64,000 bases of DNA from [Phialemoniopsis] sp. UDSM-2020 (taxonomy: Eukaryota; Ascomycota; Sordariomycetes; Thyridiales; Thyridiaceae): contig JAEILZ010000008.1 in NCBI GenBank assembly GCA_018873225.1, positions 3,100,001-3,164,000 of the forward strand, read 5' to 3'. The notes beneath the pieces were generated by a model. That model searched no databases and was not told where the DNA came from. It saw nothing but the letters and a program-made list of their open reading frames with translations. Positions 1 through 54,378 of the stretch are shown in pieces. The first letter of the stretch is position 1. Each line of letters opens with the position of its first letter. The translations under genes were made by a program, and so were the position numbers.

Positions 1-81
1 TCGAATGGTGGTATTATTTACAATCTAGACCAGACAGACTACCTCCTTCTACTGTTCAGACAATATAAGAAGTCGGGACCA

Positions 82-16506: not shown

Positions 16507-17565
16507 CGCGTTGCTGTACAGACAGGGCTAGATCAAGGAAGTGGAACAGGTCGGACGATGGTGCTAGCACAGTGCTCCAGCAATCAGGACGTCACACCGG
16601 AGAGTGAGCAGAGGAGGTAATTGCCCAATAAGCGCCTCTGGGGTGATCCCTGGTGTGATCTTGGCACATGGAGTGTCGAAGTATGAAAGCAGGACAGGAT
16701 TGCGATCAGCTAGAATGCTATTTTGGCTGATGAAAAGCGATTGGGACATTGCGGCATAGTTCTTGACCAATGCAGAAGGAGATCAGGCAGCAGTGTGGGG
16801 TATGAACAGCGGAATTGTGCAGCCAACAGCAGCGAATACGAGCTTTCGATACCTTACACAAATCTCGCTCGCTTGCCTGCCCGGCTGATAAAGGTCACAA
16901 CACTCCAGCAATCTAACAGACCAACTTTGAGCCATTCATCTCCGGTCATGGGCGGACAGCCATTCCACTCATGTAAATTTGCCTGACGCGGCGTCGGGAT
17001 CCGCTACATGTACTTGAAATGTCCGCGGTGTGCGTGCAAAGGATGACAGAGGAAAACAAACACCCACGGACTGTAATTATGGATTATTGACCCCTTCACC
17101 AGAGTTTTCCTTTCGCCTAGAAATGCTTGTATTATGTATAGATATAGCGTCCTGGTCCTGATAAGCCAGGGCCAATCGCTCAATCAAGTGGCCCAGCCAC
17201 TGTCGTGTGAATTTGCACGGTCAAAAATGTTCCATTGCTTCAGCTGCCTTATGCCTATACCTTCTATTCATGGATATGGAGAAGTGAATGATAGGAGGGA
17301 GTAAATAGCCACCTGCAAGACTTTGCATTCGACAACATGTCAAAGGCTTTGATTTCCGACGAGTAGTCGAGCTTTTGCGAGATGCGTCATACATATTGGA
17401 TGCAAGCTCTAACTGTATCTTGCTGTTAGACATTAAGTTGCACAAAAGATTATGCTACACCGTGAGGAGTGGGATAGTGGAACAAAGAGAAAGACAAAAC
17501 CAGGTAGTCTTCACTTCGACCTATGCTCGAACCCATGCGGCAAGACGTTAAAGATCAAATAAAAA
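16507..17565. other. Gene-poor spacer
   Basis: No supported coding region and no TMD0 for the adjacent transporter in any frame. It ends at the first RNA element; the B-box-like GGTTCGAGC (minus) lies at 17525-17533. Confidence 0.45.
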
Positions 17566-17617
17566 ACGAAGCCCTGGCATTGCCAGGTGCGTCCTTGGAG
17601 TGTTTTCGCTACTTCGC
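17566..17617 (-). ncRNA. Pol III-type tRNA-end-like RNA, copy 1 (short)
   Basis: Minus strand: GCGAAGT opens the element and GCTTCGT closes it, a 7-bp stem with wobble at its end. A hairpin CCTGG-CAATG-CCAGG abuts the 3' strand. It is followed at once by T6. The A-box is damaged (TAGCGAAAAC instead of TAGCTCAAC). A B-box-like GGTTCGAGC lies 27 bases after the T-run. An AT-rich GATATTATC sits 26-34 bases upstream. At 52 bases it is the shortest copy, with almost no middle insert, and may be degenerate. Confidence 0.45.
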
Positions 17618-17830
17618 TGAAAGTAATTGCACTTGTTTCGGGTGATAATATCCCTGCGTAGACTCGTGTTCTCCACATCTGGTCCGGAGTGTTGACTCAT
17701 CGGCGAGCCAGCCATCTCACTCACACACAAGGTCCTCTCCCCCTGAGTACCAGTAAAGAAAAGAGCAAAAAAGAAAGGAAGAGATCCGTTGGCGAATCGA
17801 ACCACTGATCAATTGACTGGATTGCAAAAA

Positions 17831-17906
17831 GCGAAGCCCTGGTGGTTAGCCAGGAATTGTTTTCACCCATAGAAAATGTCATAATTGACTAGTTGAGCTA
17901 CTTCGC
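17831..17906 (-). ncRNA. Pol III-type tRNA-end-like RNA, copy 2
   Basis: 76 bases on the minus strand. The ends pair as GCGAAGT with GCTTCGC. The A-box TAGCTCAACTAG overlaps the 5' strand. The hairpin CCTGG-CTAACCA-CCAGG has the 5-bp/7-base size of a tRNA T-arm but no TTC loop sequence. T5 follows directly. The strongest B-box of the set, GGTTCGATTCG, is at 17793-17803 (minus), after the T-run, and a second T6 lies at 17767-17772. CATATG-like AT-rich sequence is 25-32 bases upstream. It is tRNA-sized but has no anticodon or D-arm fold. Confidence 0.55.
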
Positions 17907-19276
17907 TTGGAAAGTATTCAGTCATATTTGGTCATATGCTCCGGATTCTTTGGTCGATGCGAGACGTGACACGTATGTATTGATGTTTTATAACTTAGGG
18001 CACAAGAGCAGAATGAACTGGCACGGGTCACCAAGATGACGTCCCCTGACAATCAAAATGATTGTGACCTCATCGACCATCGAAGCTAAGACGATATGCT
18101 TCAATGTAATGCTCTCGCATCAGTGGACCACTGTGTTCGTCATGTGGTGGAGCTTTCTCTCTTGACATGCAATGTCTGCAAGTCGACTGCTGCTCTGAGC
18201 TCCGACAGAATGCGACTCGAGAGCCCATCGTCGAGCATGACAGAAGTTCATCATCGAAGACGTAGATAGCTGCATACGACTCAAAGTTCAAGCTACGTCT
18301 TGTTCTCGCCCTTACTGTGGAGGTTTTTAATTAGTGGTGTTTCATCTTCTACGCCTGTCGTGCTCAGAGCCATCATGTTCTCTTGGATTATGAGCCGTTC
18401 CCGGCAATTTTGGACGACGATTTACTGCGTATCCTCTCAGATCACTTGCTGTTGTCACCGTCATCACTCCATCACAGTTGCATGAGTTCATATTGTAGCG
18501 CTGGTCTGGGTCCTGAGTGCCATTCCAGAGCCTTGCCAAGACACGGGACGGCTCATGACTTAACTCGCCACACGCCTCACTCGGGGCCACGCATCCTGTC
18601 AGAGTGAGACTAGCGGAGGGACTGGTCCGGGGTTTGAGCCGAAGACGCTAATCACGAGAGCCCTCTCCCGCTGACAGGGCCCTAGCCTCCGCCCCTCTGC
18701 TAGGAGTTCCTTGACACACGCAGCATATGAGTGGCTCTCTCCTCCAAGAGCACCGCAGAACGCAGGGTGACCAATTGCTCCTGCTAGTCCCAAGCTGCAA
18801 ACATAACAGAGCATCCTCAATTGAGGTGTCGTATGCCAAGACTGTCTACTGGAGCCAGTCTGAAATACACTTTGTCAACCTGTTTCATCGTTAGGTATAT
18901 TGCGCTTCGAGCCCCTTGTCCTTGGTCGAGCCTTCAAACCTTGCCCGCTGGTTCATGTCACGGCATCTGGATTCCGGCTGTAGAAAGGCCTTACTCGTAT
19001 CTTGAGACCATGATGCAACATCTTCCGATCGATAAGTCGAGACTGATCTATGAATCTAGCTTCTAGTCTGTTTTATCTTCGTGTGTACCTGCCAGTTGAG
19101 AGTTCTACGAGTCGATGACGATTCAGTATGAACTGCACAGCAATTATAAGAATTAGATCGAATCCTTCGAGTGTTGGAAGTGACTATCCTTCCCATCTAT
19201 TTGAGTTGTTGATTTGATCATCCGCGTCTGGTCTTTGTCAAAATTTACCATATTAAGCTAGCCAGATTCCATTAAG
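17907..19276. other. Gene-poor spacer
   Basis: No coding gene that I can support; the frames present are short and lack family signatures. The last 250 bases are the likely promoter of the G1 peptidase gene. Confidence 0.45.
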
Positions 19277-48044: not shown

Positions 48045-48989
48045 GTGTCAGACCTCAACAAACTGCCCTACCGGATTTTAGATGGACTGGAGAACGGCAA
48101 GCGTACAGCACAGCCACCACTTCCATGAAACGCAAGGCTCTCGGCTCTTGTTAAGTTCGGATGAGTGTATCAAGTGGTGCAGGTCATGAGGAATGTTGAA
48201 TCAAGTATCTGGTAGGTACACATCGCGCGCGCGCGTGACGTGAGGCAGTAGATCTCCCCATGGGGGGACAATTGCCGCCGCTAGTGAAGACTCCACTGAT
48301 AGGCAAATTTATTTTCCGTCATCGCTCACGCCAGGAGTCTTAACTCTCGCGTCGACCCGCGATTGAAGCGAGCCTTGCTGTATATGCTTTAAAGCCGAAT
48401 GAGTTCTTATACTACTGACCAGACAGCGGTCCGCAAGAACGGCATCTGACAGCACTTGGATGAGCTTGCCGCTGACAACCAGAACTAGAGCGAGACCTTC
48501 TCTACTTCCGCCTCAGTCGCACATTTTCAGTTCCAATCGTTTGCAATAAATGATCTAAATGACAAGGCTGCGGGATGAATCAATAAGGATGTGGCGAGCA
48601 TGTGAACACCAAGATAGAGAGTCACGTTCAAATTCGCCAGGATACGCTGTTCAGCTCGCCATGCTTCCACATTGCATCTGATCATTCCAGTTTGGGCCTA
48701 GAAAGCTTTCAGCTGCATGTATGACAGGGAGCCATTGCACGGGAAATAGCGAATCAGTATCGTTGCGGCCCATCTATCATTCGCCAGACCTGAGTTGGGG
48801 GCCACTGTACTCCGCGAACGGGAACCCTGGAACAGTCCGCCCTTCGCGACCCCTGTCCAATGTGCGTTGGCGACGCGACATCCTGGTCTATCTATCCGAG
48901 ATTTGAAATCCGTGCTTGCTTCTCACTATCTTGAGAATGCTTCAGCTCACAAAATCTCATGATATTCTGCAAAATGCGAACGCCCGACG
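48045..48989. other. Intergenic
   Basis: Divergent upstream region of the regulator and the HET gene. A CG-alternating run with TGACGTGA follows at about 48226-48243. No gene seen. Confidence 0.45.
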
Positions 48990-50831
48990 ATGGTCGGCTC
49001 TCTGGTGCACGTCCAAGGCTTACCACCACGGCCAGATGTCGAGTACGTCTACACTTCACTACCAAAGAATGACTCTATCCGGTACTTCGTCCTGGACGAG
49101 GGGCAACGCGATGACCCCGTTTCCGGTAGACTCTGCACGGCGGAGCTCCGGGATATGTCGGATGTGGAGGCCATATCCTATGTGTGGGGCGACGTGAACG
49201 ACATCGATGTAGTCTCGTGCAACGACAGACTCGTCTACGTGACGCGCAATCTCAGACAGGTGCTACAGCAAATCCGACTACCAGATGCAAAACGCAAGAT
49301 CTGGGCCGATGCTTTATGTATAAACCAGAGTGACCTCGCAGAGCGAAGTCAACAAGTGTCCCTCATGGGAGAGATCTACAGCCGGACCAAGAATATACTA
49401 ATCTGCTTGGGACCTGACGAGTTCGACGACGCTTCTTCTGCGGTGGGCCTCTTCCGGGATATGGATGAGATTATCAAGAACAAGCTCAGAGAGATTGAGA
49501 AGGAATGGAATACCTTTCCCTGGCCTGAGAAAGACGACCCACTTCTCCTCGACGCGAGGTGGTCGTCCGTCGAGGCCTTGTCACAAAATCCCTGGTTCAC
49601 CCAAGGCTGGGTCATACAGGAGGCTGCTTTGGCTAACACAGCCTTGGTCGTGTGGGGTGACTACATCATACAATGGGCGTCGCTCGTGAGGACAATGCTC
49701 TGGGTGATGACGAGGGGCGCCGTCCTGCACACCCAGTTCACGTTTGGCATTTGCGGGCTGCACCTAGCCTCGAATCAAATGCTGTTACCCAACGCGACCT
49801 ATGCTATGGGCTACCGCGCCGTGCCGACTATGCTCTTTTTACTACATGAAGCGCGTCATCTGAGCTTCACCGACGAGAGGGATCGGATATACGCCTTCTT
49901 GGAACTGGCGAAGCGGCACTCGAAGAAGCATCTCGGTATTATACCCGACTACGAGCGGGCGTTCCTCGATGTATATCGTGACTTCTCCTACATCTATCTG
50001 GCAGTCGAGCAAGACCTGGATCTCATCAGCTACGCGATAAACGACGAGTTGACCGATGGCGTAGGAGGGCTGCCTTCCTGGGTGCCGCGATGGGACACAC
50101 CTCCGGCGTGGGATCTCACGCGGTTCGCCCCAGACAGGCTCACTTCCCGAGCCGGGCATACTTATGCCCCGCTCGTGGATCAGAACGGCGATCTTTACGT
50201 GCAGGGCGTGGTCATTGACACAGCCGCGCTGGTCAGTGACAGACTGACACATGCGGCTACCGACACCGCTCGCGTCACAGCGAGGCTGTGGAATGAGGTC
50301 ATGAGCTTCGCAGATGGGATCGCTTACTCGCCCGAAGCCTCACTACCAGCATTCATTGAGTGCTTGACGGCGGGTTGCGTGCCGCGAGTCCGGTTCGAGG
50401 AATGGGCCGACGTACGGACATCGTTCCTGCAAGGGCTTCAGACCGAAGGTGCTCATTTTGGACCGCACATCGTTGGAACGCTGGGCGAGAGCTCTTCTGG
50501 CGATGCGCGGGTTTTAGGCGGTGATATCCACGGATACTGCCTGCGGAGACGCTTCATAGTGACGCAGCGCGGGTACTTTGGGCTGGTCCCTGACGCGGTG
50601 CGAGCGGGCGACCTCTGCTGCATCGTCTTCGGGGCCCGTATACCGTTTATCATCCGACCGACAGAGTGCCAGGGTAGGTTCAAGCTCATTGGACCAGTCT
50701 TCCTGGTCAGCAAGGAGCTGTGCAGTATTGGCGAGAGCTCGGAGTTTACCTACTGCCCCTTGCTCGGATCTACAGATGGGAAAGACTGGATCGGCTGGGA
50801 CGTCGACGAGCAAACTATTACCCTTTGTTGA
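48990..50831 (+). CDS. HET-domain (heterokaryon incompatibility) protein
   Basis: Intronless, 613 residues. The HET domain occupies about residues 55-215: EAISYVWGDVND, then RLPDAKRKIWADALCINQ, ERSQQVSLMGEIYSRTK and NPWFTQGWVIQEAALA, the four classic blocks. The C-terminal 350 residues hold GLPSWVPRWDTP and YFGLVPDAVRAGDLCCIVFG, the usual end region of stand-alone HET proteins. No WD, ankyrin or NACHT part is present. Such proteins can trigger cell death on non-self contact, though most are uncharacterised. Its stop lies 200 bases from the left edge of the RNA element array. Confidence 0.93.
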   Translation: MVGSLVHVQGLPPRPDVEYVYTSLPKNDSIRYFVLDEGQRDDPVSGRLCTAELRDMSDVEAISYVWGDVNDIDVVSCNDRLVYVTRNLRQVLQQIRLPDAKRKIWADALCINQSDLAERSQQVSLMGEIYSRTKNILICLGPDEFDDASSAVGLFRDMDEIIKNKLREIEKEWNTFPWPEKDDPLLLDARWSSVEALSQNPWFTQGWVIQEAALANTALVVWGDYIIQWASLVRTMLWVMTRGAVLHTQFTFGICGLHLASNQMLLPNATYAMGYRAVPTMLFLLHEARHLSFTDERDRIYAFLELAKRHSKKHLGIIPDYERAFLDVYRDFSYIYLAVEQDLDLISYAINDELTDGVGGLPSWVPRWDTPPAWDLTRFAPDRLTSRAGHTYAPLVDQNGDLYVQGVVIDTAALVSDRLTHAATDTARVTARLWNEVMSFADGIAYSPEASLPAFIECLTAGCVPRVRFEEWADVRTSFLQGLQTEGAHFGPHIVGTLGESSSGDARVLGGDIHGYCLRRRFIVTQRGYFGLVPDAVRAGDLCCIVFGARIPFIIRPTECQGRFKLIGPVFLVSKELCSIGESSEFTYCPLLGSTDGKDWIGWDVDEQTITLC

Positions 50832-51030
50832 CAGTCGTGGCTTCTGTGGGTATTCACTTGATATCAGTGTGTGTCGTTGTAAATAGAGAGTACCAGGCAA
50901 ATAGCCTACATCGTCAGGCAGACAGGGATATTGTACGAGAACAAGAAAGAGGATAAAAAATACAAGATGAAGAGGATGCAGGGCTCGAAGGCATGTCTGC
51001 TTACTTTCACAAACCAGAAACGGCAAAAAA

Positions 51031-51111
51031 GCGAAGGCCTGGCTTGCCAGAGCAAGCCAGGCGGATAATTCCATAGAAAGAACCCCGAAGGTGACTGTTG
51101 AGCTACTTCGC
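51031..51111 (-). ncRNA. Pol III-type tRNA-end-like RNA, copy 3
   Basis: 81 bases. The ends are GCGAAGT and CCTTCGC; only the seventh pair is mismatched. The A-box TAGCTCAACAG is intact. The hairpin is extended to a perfect 10 bp (CCTGGCTTGC / GCAAGCCAGG, loop TCTG). T6 follows. A B-box-like CCTTCGAGCCC lies at 50981-50991 and another T6 at 50955-50960. TTCTATGG in the middle recurs in copy 2. Confidence 0.55.
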
Positions 51112-51501
51112 TTGATGAACACAGGCAACCAAGTGCACTTATGAACTAATTGCATGGCTGGCTAGGCCGACGTTTGCTCACCCTGTGCACACTTGCCAGG
51201 GTCAGAGAAGGTCGAACCTTGGCAGAGAGGCATGACAGACATGAGGGAGGATAGCATAATCCCCAACATTCACATTAGTTGTTTCTACGGAGCAGACAAG
51301 CAAGATCAATTAAGCAAAGGCTGAATTAGGGGAATGCCAGTTGCACATTACAGCAGCTCTACGATCAAATCACAAAGTAATTGTACCACAACACTTGAAA
51401 CCAAGGACAAAAAAAAAAGACATGAAGATAATTCAAGCTGTTTTCGAAAGCCAGTACAGGCCAATAACAAAACCAAAAAGAGAAGGACGACCAGCAAAAA
51501 A

Positions 51502-51563
51502 GCGACGCCCTTGTAAAGGCCGGAAACCTGAGGTAAGATCTTTGTATTGTTGAGCTACGCCGC
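51502..51563 (-). ncRNA. Pol III-type tRNA-end-like RNA, copy 4 (covariant stem)
   Basis: 62 bases. The acceptor-like stem has changed on both sides: GCGGCGT pairs with GCGTCGC, so the usual A-T at pair 5 is C-G and pair 4 is G-T. The hairpin is CCTT-TAC-AAGG, again changed on both sides. T6 follows. The A-box TAGCTCAACAA is kept. The upstream block CTTAAGCGAATTAG matches the TATA block of copy 7 with changes. A weak B-box-like CTTTCGAAAAC lies near 51441-51451. Confidence 0.5.
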
Positions 51564-51809
51564 TGAAAGCTGTGACACTGCTAATTCGCTTAAGGCACTG
51601 CCTAGACTAAGTTGTACTTTACCCCCTGACGCCACTAGCCAGCCAGGCAGCAGAGCGCCGACTGAGTCACACCGGCAAACACCCTCAGCTTTCACCACGT
51701 CCCTAGTCGATGCCCTGGTCAGACCAGAGGTGCCAAAAAAGAAATAGAAGTGATTATACACCGAATCGAACGTGTACACTCTGGTTTCCGAGTTTATGAT
51801 TGCCAAAAA

Positions 51810-51875
51810 GCGAAGTCCTGGTCGTCACAGCCAGGGGTTTTTCTACCACAAGAAGTTTTGATTGAGCTACTTCGC
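51810..51875 (-). ncRNA. Pol III-type tRNA-end-like RNA, copy 5
   Basis: 66 bases. GCGAAGT pairs with ACTTCGC over all 7 positions. The A-box is TAGCTCAATC. The hairpin CCTGG-CTGTGACGA-CCAGG abuts the 3' strand, and T5 follows. CTTATAAG lies 26-33 bases upstream (51901-51908). A B-box-like CGTTCGATTCG is at 51762-51772 (minus) after the T-run, then T6 at 51735-51740. This is one of the two best matches to the full unit plan. Confidence 0.58.
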
Positions 51876-51985
51876 CTGGACGAAGATTGCCGTTATATGG
51901 CTTATAAGTCCTTGTCTTGTATAAAAGACGGAACATGTAGAGCATAAGTGATCAGCTTGGATATTGCACAGGCAAATGGCAAAAA

Positions 51986-52054
51986 GCGAAGCCCTGGCAA
52001 GCCAGGTTAATTCTTTTGGATCAGTCAAATAGATTATCAATTGAGCTACTTCGC
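51986..52054 (-). ncRNA. Pol III-type tRNA-end-like RNA, copy 6
   Basis: 69 bases. GCGAAGT pairs with GCTTCGC. The A-box is TAGCTCAATTG. The hairpin CCTGG-CTTG-CCAGG has the very stable G(CUUG)C tetraloop. T5 follows. GTTATAAGC is 24-32 bases upstream (52078-52086). No B-box is seen downstream, and no second long T-run. Confidence 0.55.
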
Positions 52055-52209
52055 TGAAGGGCGAGTACGGTATTGTAGCTTATAACCGTTCACCCTAACC
52101 AGAGCGAGTCCTAGGCAATGCCTAAACCTGCTTAGGTATCGCGTCTTACTGGAAAATGGATGTCCAAAAAAGAAACACAAAAACGGACAGACATCGCCAA
52201 TGGCAAAAA

Positions 52210-52291
52210 GCGAAGTCTGGCAAGCCAGAGCATCTCTAAATCAACGGATTTAAAGTCGTTACGCAAACGAAAGACAGTTGAGCTACTTCGC
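52210..52291 (-). ncRNA. Pol III-type tRNA-end-like RNA, copy 7
   Basis: 82 bases. GCGAAGT pairs with ACTTCGC. The A-box is TAGCTCAACTG. The hairpin is CTGG-CTTG-CCAG (CUUG tetraloop). T5 follows. GTTATAAGC lies 25-33 bases upstream (52316-52324). No clear B-box, but T6 occurs at 52166-52171. The middle insert is about 50 bases and unlike the other copies. Confidence 0.55.
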
Positions 52292-52507
52292 TGGAAGTTC
52301 TGAACCCACTAATTGGCTTATAACACCACCCCAGACCAGTGCTGTGCCACCGGAACCTCGGCCTGTAAGCTGCCAAGGTCTCTCCGCTGTTGACTCACTC
52401 CGGCGAGCATATCCTCTCCGAGGGAGTGACCAAAAAGAAGAAGAGATATGTAAAATGGCAGGACTGTGGCTCGAATACATGACTGCTGGACTTGCAAAAA
52501 GGTAAAA

Positions 52508-52594
52508 GCGAAGTCCAGGCAAGGCCTGGTTAGATTGAATTTGAATCAATTTCCTGTGTTGCCACGGGGTACCTAGATGGTTGAGCTACTTCGC
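52508..52594 (-). ncRNA. Pol III-type tRNA-end-like RNA, copy 8 (covariant hairpin)
   Basis: 87 bases, the longest copy. GCGAAGT pairs with ACTTCGC. The A-box is TAGCTCAACCAT. The hairpin is CCAGG-CCTTG-CCTGG, where the central pair is flipped on both sides relative to other copies. The run after it is broken (TTTTACC then TTTTT at 52496-52500). GTCATAAG lies about 23-30 bases upstream. A B-box-like TATTCGAGCC lies at 52468-52477 and T5 at 52432-52436. Confidence 0.55.
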
Positions 52595-52793
52595 TGGAGA
52601 TGAAGCCTGTAACTTGAACTTATGACACTGCGGATGTACATCCTGTTTCGCTGTTGCATTGCTTGAAGTACGTATCTCATAGTATTTGTAAATGGTCTTT
52701 CAAGAAATATGAACAAGAAATCGTCTTCCATAAGACTACACCCCATCCCAAAGAAAGGTTGCTTTTCATCATGCCTCTTTCCAACTCACTCCC

Positions 52794-54378
52794 TTACATA
52801 GCCATAACCAGCCCAGCAACGCCAGCGACAACCACAGCGCCCAGCCCGGCCACAGTTCGCCCCTGAGCGCCATTGGGCTTCCCCGTCGCCGTGACGATGC
52901 TGCCGCTCGTCGTCGCCGTCGGTGTACCGGAGCTCTTGCTCAGCACGTAGATCTCGCCCGTCGTGTCCGACGTGACAAACAAACGCCCGCTCATGCCCCA
53001 GGCGAGACCCACGGGCCGGAAGCAGTTGCCCGGGCACTGCGCCTTCTGGCCCGGGTTCGACATGATGTCGGTCAGTGCGTCGGTGCTGCTCGAGGGCTCG
53101 ACGGGCGAGCCGCGCTCCTTGTCGAAGGCGATGGTCGAGACGCGGTAGCCCTCCGGGTTGGTCTTGTCGACTGCGCGCGCGACGGGGTTAGCGGCTGCTT
53201 GTGTTGGGGGAGGGGAGGGGGGAGAAGGGGAAAAGAAACTTACAGCTTCCGTGGAAGGTGACGTACGCCAGCGCGCCGTCGTCGCTGAACTTGATGTCGA
53301 GCGGCGCGTAGTGCGCGGGCAGCGTGAGCCGGGGAGCGACGTAGTCCTCGGCGCAGGTGGTGTCGTTGAGCGTCGAGTTCTGCGTCAGGCTGAACTGGTC
53401 GCCGACGTGCAGCGTGCCCTCGGTGCTCGCGGGTCCCGGCAGGTTCGTGTCCCAGACCGCAAAGCAGTTGGGGTAGCCGTAGTTGCCGCCCTGGTTGTCC
53501 GTCGTGGAGTTGAGGAAGCCGTGATAATTCAACTCCTCGCCCGGGTTGGTCTTTTGCACGTCGGAGCCGTCGCGCGTGACGCCGTCGATGCTGTTCTCGA
53601 CGCTGTAGATGCCGCCCGTGACGGGGTGCTCGCCGATACCGACGGAATTGCGCAGGCCCCAGCCCATGACGCGCCCGTCGGTGGCAAAGTTGTAGGCGGA
53701 CTGGCCGTCGAGCAGGCGCGACAGGTCAAAGGCGCGGATCTGCGACAGGCCCGAGTCGCGGTCGAGGGCGTCGATGTCGTAGTTCTCGGCGGAGCCGCGC
53801 GAGACGAGGAGCTGGCCGGGCACCTTCTTCGACATGAGCAGGGTGCGCGTGGTCAGGTCGTTGTTGCTCATGTTGCCGACGACGGTGCGCGGGTTGCCGC
53901 TGATGGTGCCCTTGGCGGCGTCGTAGGCCCAGGCGTAGACGGCCTCGACGTTGGAGGCGTAGAGGGTCCTGCCGTCGTCGGACAGGGTGAGGCCGTGGTT
54001 CAGCTGTGGTGGGCGGGTTACAGATTAGCAATTGCTCTTCGTACGTCGGGGGCAGCTTGGAATTTGGCATTGACTTACAGTCGTATCGGCGACGACGGTG
54101 GTGGCCTGGTCGACAACGAGACAGGTGCCGCCATTGTCCTTGAAAGTGAATCGGGTAACACCCTTGCCGCTCTCGACGACGAGCAGACCACCGGCGCTAT
54201 CGAACTGGATACTCCGAGGCTTCTTGAGGCCATTGACGACCAGCTGGGCGCTCCAGCCGGGCGCGACAGAGGGAGGCGAGTAGGCCGGGACGAGCACGGA
54301 CGAGCAGGCCGTCTGCGCAGCGACTCCGGCGGCGAAGAGCCCCGCTCCGATGGCCGCACTGGCGAAGCTCGACTTCAT
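52794..54378 (-). CDS. Sorbosone/glucose dehydrogenase-like (PQQ-type propeller), probably GPI-anchored
   Basis: Beta-propeller protein of the soluble glucose/L-sorbosone dehydrogenase fold, secreted. Three exons (54378-54079, 54003-53244, 53170-52794) give 478 residues. The signal peptide is MKSSFASAAIGAGLFAAGVAA. Family stretches: LKKPRSIQFDSAGGLLVVE, LNHGLTLSDDGRTLYAS, GLRNSVGIGEHPVTGGIYS, GGNYGYPNCF, and PLDIKFSDDGALAYVTFHGS before the last intron. The C-terminus is Thr/Ser-rich and ends in a hydrophobic run (VAGLGAVVVAGVAGLVMAM), a likely GPI-anchor signal. Fungal members often act on the cell surface in carbohydrate oxidation. Cofactor use is not proven here. GC-rich codons create a 444-residue shadow frame on the other strand. 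Confidence 0.88.

Follow-up and report, generated by a model that had tools for sequence, protein, structure and literature searches.

Vault RNAs and Y RNAs are Pol III transcripts in which a closing end stem accompanies a variable middle. Among fungi, the Pol III transcripts of which we know are nearly all housekeeping RNAs. An exception is provided by the Neurospora milRNAs, for which Pol III transcription, elements resembling a TATA box and a stretch of T immediately following the RNA are described (PMC3547838). A pertinent promoter arrangement is that of the yeast U6 gene, SNR6, with TATA at -30, box A and an extragenic box B beyond the terminator, box A and box B being 202 bp apart (PMC9136082). 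The nearest published RNA plan is that of the dictyostelid Class I RNAs, which are encoded by clustered intergenic genes, many followed by a T run; a 6-bp stem with compensatory changes joins their ends, those of Dictyostelium discoideum are 42-65 nt long and have the upstream element DUSE about 60 nt upstream, and the class is reported from dictyostelids only (PMC7919456).

The family considered here lies partly in a 64-kb stretch of fungal DNA, the whole of which is called the window, within a genome of 44.18 Mb in 11 contigs. Eleven members were found, eight of them in the window and three elsewhere in the 44.2 Mb, spread over four contigs. An earlier note had described a tandem array of six minus-strand elements, and all six are present where it had placed them: e1 at 52508-52594 (87 nt, with hairpin CCAGG/CCTGG; 55 bits with the covariance model dealt with below), e2 at 52210-52291 (82 nt; 45.1 bits), e3 at 51986-52054 (69 nt; 58.4 bits), e4 at 51810-51875 (66 nt; 50.6 bits), e5 at 51502-51563 (62 nt; 46.8 bits) and e6 at 51031-51111 (81 nt, with an 11-bp hairpin; 51.8 bits). 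Six was nevertheless too low a count, and the note's own mention of eight copies agrees with two more near 17.6-17.9 kb, also on the minus strand and outside the reported span, e7 at 17831-17906 (76 nt; 53.2 bits) and e8 at 17566-17617 (52 nt; 49 bits). The members beyond the window are e9 (contig 11, 1991756-1991823), e10 (contig 7, 2258509-2258569; 39.3 bits) and e11 (contig 1, 1650259-1650328; 26.9 bits), the last two being absent from the model's training set.

In all of them the 5′ strand of a closing stem (GCGAAGT with xCTTCGC) is adjoined by a UAGCUCAA-type motif, followed by a free middle of 16-51 nt and then a hairpin sitting on the closing stem, the eight window copies being 52-87 nt in length overall. 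The ends that the earlier note had given hold for its six elements, the opening GCG(A/G)(A/C)GTAGCTCAA being GCGAAG in five and GCGGCG in one, and the hairpin adjoining a closing (A/G/C)C(T/G)TCGC in each. T5-T6 follows the stem directly in five of the six, the exception, as had been noticed, being e1, where TTTTA follows and a T5 run comes 7 bases past the stem; over the whole family a T4-T6 run directly follows the stem in 10 of 11 copies. Eight copies carry the motif as TAGCTCAA, two as TAGCGAA and a single one as TAGCTCCA; e8 has TAGCGAAA in place of TAGCTCAA.

How members were found matters for what their likeness can mean. Uniform base counts predict 0.33 occurrences of the exact 14-mer GCGAAGTAGCTCAA in 44.18 Mb; the observed number is 7, of which 6 fall in the window. 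Allowing one mismatch gives 26 matches against 21 for the reversed pattern, so that the excess sits in the exact matches, and a two-mismatch pattern gives 14 against 9 reversed. The gapped pattern GTAGCTCAA-30..60-TCGCTTTT has 5 matches in the genome, all of them family elements, and none when reversed; in the collection viral_contigs, which is not expected to contain fungi, an exact gapped pattern matches no stretch. Two gapped patterns with GCGAAGTAGC and CTTCGC ends return 9 of the 11 members together with one locus, L051, that was judged false (their reversed controls give 3 and 0 matches), and do not reach e5 and e8, whose ends are altered. A covariance model of the kind that the earlier note had suggested was built from nine copies with their middles masked, and run on the window, on locus L008 and on 27 new loci from the one- and two-mismatch patterns. 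The nine training copies score 45-58 bits, the two non-training copies 39.3 and 26.9 bits, and the other loci in that run at most 14.4 bits. For the two non-training members one end was required by the search pattern, the other end, hairpin and flanks being independent of it. The model was also given 13 loci from the surroundings of e9-e11, from the three U6 matches mentioned below and from L051; besides e10 and e11 it returned 20.9 bits for L051 and three further matches at no more than 11.3 bits. L051 is not counted (E 0.00023; by eye, neither hairpin nor T run), though this chance-looking match is not far below e11 in score. L039 (14.4 bits) was also left out, as were L038, L032 and the remaining loci, at 12.1 bits or less. 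Because members were found by their ends, some of the resemblance among those ends is built in, and any members with quite different ends would be missed.

Two further loci were set aside. L070 (contig 10, 32263-32351, plus strand; 113-201 of the locus) has GTAGCTCAA and GCTACTTCGCTTTT with a hairpin between, at 11 bits and with the 5′ strand of the stem broken; it lies near the other end of the array's own contig and is possibly a decayed copy. L069 (contig 6, 1406571-1406615, minus) lacks the closing stem; it has GTAGCTCAA and a hairpin with a T run at its end, past which lies a TTTCGAGGG site, and may be a distant relative.

The array is flanked by a plus-strand HET-domain frame (48963-50831) and by a minus-strand frame for a TrAA12-like protein extending to about 52794. 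No frame of at least 150 codons lies between 15795 and 19262, around e7 and e8. A coding explanation was considered for the 215-codon stop-to-stop frame at 50514-51161 on the minus strand, which covers e6 and is largely opposite the HET-domain frame, and was rejected. The window's ADA2 has 95% identity to that of Thyridium curvatum, with the next named species at 85%, among the matches listed; going by this one protein, the host would be T. curvatum or a relative.

In 11 of 11 copies the best TATA-like match starts from -30 to -33 of the presumed RNA start. On the minus strand these are CATAAG for e1 (52619-52624, from -30), TATAAG for e2 (52317-52322, from -31), e3 (52079-52084, from -30) and e4 (51901-51906, from -31), CTTAAG for e5 (51589-51594, from -31) and CATAAG for e6 (51138-51143, from -32); weak matches with 4 of 6 letters, a level reached by 64% of random places, are CATATG for e7 (17933-17938, from -32) and TATTAT for e8 (17645-17650, from -33). 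At least 5 of 6 letters fit in 9 of 11 copies (P 4.9e-7) and all 6 in 4 of 11 (P 2.3e-7). Of the 11 copies, 8 have a B-box-like TTCGA within the 70 bases scored downstream of the stem, at offsets of 27-53 (P 3.5e-6 against 11.4% after the window's 70 runs of T5 or longer); random places give 7.6%. Past the terminator on the minus strand it is found for e1 at 52471-52475 (offset 32), e4 at 51766-51770 (39), e5 at 51444-51448 (53), e6 at 50985-50989 (41), e7 at 17797-17801 within GGTTCGATTCG (29) and e8 at 17527-17531 within GGTTCGAGCAT (34), and it is absent from the 70 bases past the stem of e2, e3 and e10. The P values for both words are optimistic, because the words were picked after looking at the copies. 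The full 11-letter box B word tells less: five copies score 9 or 10 (14% of random stretches reach 9), five score 8 (70% reach 8) and one scores 7. In 9 of the 11 copies a second run of at least 4 Ts occurs, 58-83 bases downstream of the stem.

Between these signals, 6 bases inside the presumed start, is the motif. In every copy it agrees with the box A word TRGCNNARNNG at 9 to 11 of the 11 positions, an agreement without a chance control. Box A in tRNA genes sits farther from the start than that. As the last G fits in only 3 of 11 copies, the motif may be a site in the RNA rather than box A. The order of TATA-like box, candidate box A and TTCGA beyond the terminator is, as read from these signals, the layout of the Pol III gene SNR6, and points to the elements being, very probably, transcribed by Pol III. 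The earlier note had called them Pol III-type, and the upstream boxes and the TTCGA, neither of which it had cited, bear this out as a prediction.

The closing stem has six or seven pairs in 11 of 11 copies, with 97.4% of cells paired and a seventh pair that is U-G or U-A in 9 of 11. Otherwise it varies little: in e5 (GCGGCG with CGTCGC) one A-U pair has become C-G and another G-U, and in e8 the outermost pair has gone from G-C to G-U. Changes on both sides of a pair are seen in both helices, the closing stem having only one such pair, in the one copy e5. The hairpin helix has 79.4% of cells paired and two-sided changes at three pairs in the model-fitted alignment, in which several hairpins are out of register; in a hand register, where pairing is by construction, hairpin pairs 2-5 alternate C-G/U-A, U-A/A-U/G-C, G-C/U-A and G-C/U-A. 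With both helices taken together, the share of paired cells is 89.3%, compared with 84.8% in shuffled controls, pairs with two-sided change number 4 against 0.9, and the covariation score is 0.168 against 0.093 shuffled and 0.025-0.053 with the partner slid. Slid structures pair in 35-49% of cells, but one of them, shifted by -2, exceeds the real structure in two-sided changes, with 5 such pairs. The hairpin beside the stem outdoes those of shuffled middles (the 11 copies give a combined P of 8.6e-8, the 0 of 1000 of e6 being entered as 0.001), though taken alone six of the eleven fall short of p 0.05 (e2, e3, e5, e7, e10 and e11). Folding energy, for the nine copies folded, is moderately low (z -0.70 to -4.35).

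Two minus-strand pieces between elements, 52103-52130 and 51705-51735, have the hairpin-plus-stem-like TTTAGGCATTGCCTAGGACTCGCT and CTGGTCTGACCAGGGCATCG and could be remnants of dead copies, and by eye the spacer between e1 and e2 (52320-52460, minus) has more inverted repeats (GTCACTCC...GGAGTGAGTC and CCTTGGCAGC...GCCGAGG).

The middles are unrelated: 1 of 55 pairs among the 11 copies reaches p<=0.05, about 3 being expected, in keeping with the earlier remark that sequence between the fixed ends differs freely. Of the same 55 pairs, which are not independent of each other, 9 reach this level in the 60 bases upstream, 8 from -120 to -61 and 10 in the 70 bases past the stem. Flanks in general thus keep some likeness, which fits duplication. 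Between e2 and e5 the likeness is 77% over a 44-nt stretch that begins ahead of the TATA-like box and reaches into the start. The 14-nt start has a mean identity of 90%, the copies having been found by this start. The simplest account, judged from such comparisons, is that these would be paralogues that kept ends and promoter through a turnover of their middles.

Taken together, the features argue, with somewhat better than even confidence, for an undescribed family of Pol III small RNAs in which a fixed frame would be bound by protein and the middle would be exchangeable. Confidence in this reading as a whole is lowered by the slid-structure control and by the members having been found by their ends. 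Mechanistically, the TATA-like box about 30 bases upstream would place TFIIIB; the box-A-like motif and, in most copies, box B beyond the terminator would bind TFIIIC, as at yeast SNR6; and transcription would end at the T run after the closing stem. In the resulting RNA a short helix would join both ends and stack on the hairpin, with a copy-specific stretch of 16-51 nt left over. A shared protein may take hold of the RNA by its ends and the UAGCUCAA-type motif, and La by the U tail (the La motif has two matches in the genome), with the middle as the part differing in what it contacts. That the middle has a targeting role is a guess, and on balance a doubtful one. A more specific version, tentative and put forward by analogy, is that of a Class I-like fungal RNA, one protein reading the stem-and-motif frame and the fast-changing middle giving each paralogue its own RNA or protein target, with new specificities arising by gene duplication and middle replacement.

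An alike frame with unrelated middles is also what would be seen if these were guide RNAs, each middle pairing with its own target RNA; the spread of middle lengths from 16 to 51 nt speaks against this, and it is considered unlikely. Slightly less probable still is that the DNA itself is what matters, the elements being docking sites for TFIIIC and TFIIIB that act as chromatin boundaries, with any transcript a by-product. Promoter-like signals and flanks that are alike beside middles that are not would then be natural, but the paired closing stem, and the hairpin beside the T run, would be left unexplained.

Precursor hairpins of the milR type are much longer than those seen here, and hairpins of 4-11 bp are short for a Dicer substrate. 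Pol III units making microRNA-like precursors, to be cut by Dicer with an arm loaded on Argonaute as for Neurospora crassa milR-1 to milR-4, would nonetheless account for TATA-like elements and a direct T stretch, both of which are described, together with Pol III, for those fungal small-RNA genes (PMC3547838), Pol III being predicted for the present family; Neurospora is also among the best ADA2 matches. Against this, the hairpin stem has 4-7 bp in every copy but one, which has 11 bp, the nine copies folded have no long stem, and what is alike is the ends and not a hairpin arm, so a Neurospora-type precursor was rejected and that origin is regarded as improbable.

At gathering cut-offs Rfam 15 has no match in the 64 kb, in line with the earlier statement that they are unrecognised; a relaxed search of 50900-52800 gives one sub-threshold match, on the plus strand across e2 and not on its sense strand, and of loci L042, L015 and L007 one sub-threshold match, off e10. 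The Rfam U6 model matches three other places of the genome and none in the window, by which U6 identity is ruled out; by eye, two of those U6 copies are preceded by TATA-like sequence and a box B is not clear. At locus L049 (contig 9, 709155-709246), a U6 match of 47.9 bits has its 5′ part replaced by sequence with GTTCGATTCC, perhaps a chimera or retrocopy, and ARAGORN finds no tRNA there. ARAGORN reports no tRNA gene in the window, in the 27 pattern-hit loci or in 10 further loci. The 'tRNA-like ends' of the earlier note hold only for the box-A-like 5′ end: ARAGORN sees no cloverleaf in the window, and by eye a D-arm partner is absent and a plain hairpin is where a T-arm would be. That the elements are relics of decayed tRNA genes or of a SINE, a mobile element derived from tRNA, as a box-A-like start, a T run, 11 places on four contigs and the T-arm-like ATTGATTCAAATTCAAT in the middle of e1 might suggest, is very unlikely, since dispersed copies share no body, uniform decay would hardly leave starts about 90% alike (in copies found by their ends) beside unrelated middles, 11 copies were found in 44 Mb, and ARAGORN has no tRNA in the window or the 27 loci. 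As neither Rfam nor ARAGORN sees the family, standard annotation misses it; RNA genes combining a fixed frame, unrelated middles and a promoter of U6 type would be a class overlooked in this way. The text string gaagtagctcaa gave literature matches that are unrelated by title, and, besides the Neurospora milRNA paper, no earlier fungal description appeared by title among the papers searched (in part the best 20 of 79), most of them outside the subscription literature.

The known systems can now be set beside the family. From vault and Y RNAs it differs in that there is no Rfam match in the window and no match in the genome to Ro60 (TROVE), in a six-frame search by exon to which 1 of 14 control genomes, a bacterium, responded. 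With the Neurospora milR-1 to milR-4 genes it shares TATA-like elements and a T stretch, and differs in having no long hairpin. The TATA-like box and the TTCGA past the terminator are shared with SNR6, and the motif between them may correspond to its box A; the differences are that the RNA is not U6 and that the motif and TTCGA lie about 80-116 bases apart, versus 202 bp for the two boxes of SNR6 (PMC9136082). Closest is the plan of the dictyostelid Class I RNAs, in view of which the claim of the earlier note that no described family has this layout was too strong (PMC7919456). Shared features are the short end-joining stem, a fixed motif beside its 5′ strand, a variable remainder, intergenic clusters and the T run. 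By contrast, the present family is 52-87 nt long, carries a hairpin on the stem, and has a TATA-like box at -30 to -33 and, in 8 of its 11 copies, a TTCGA downstream of the terminator. In a comparison by eye with the Class I 11-nt motif (T3, C6, C9, A10, A11), T3 and C6 coincide with AGTAGCTCAA and CAA is one base nearer here, so that the family does not follow that motif. Because motif register, length, promoter and lineage differ, the Class I RNA is taken as an analogue and not as a member of the same family; it is the nearest published plan. If transcribed, the elements would provide a second lineage in which to test the Class I RNA plan as a general solution.
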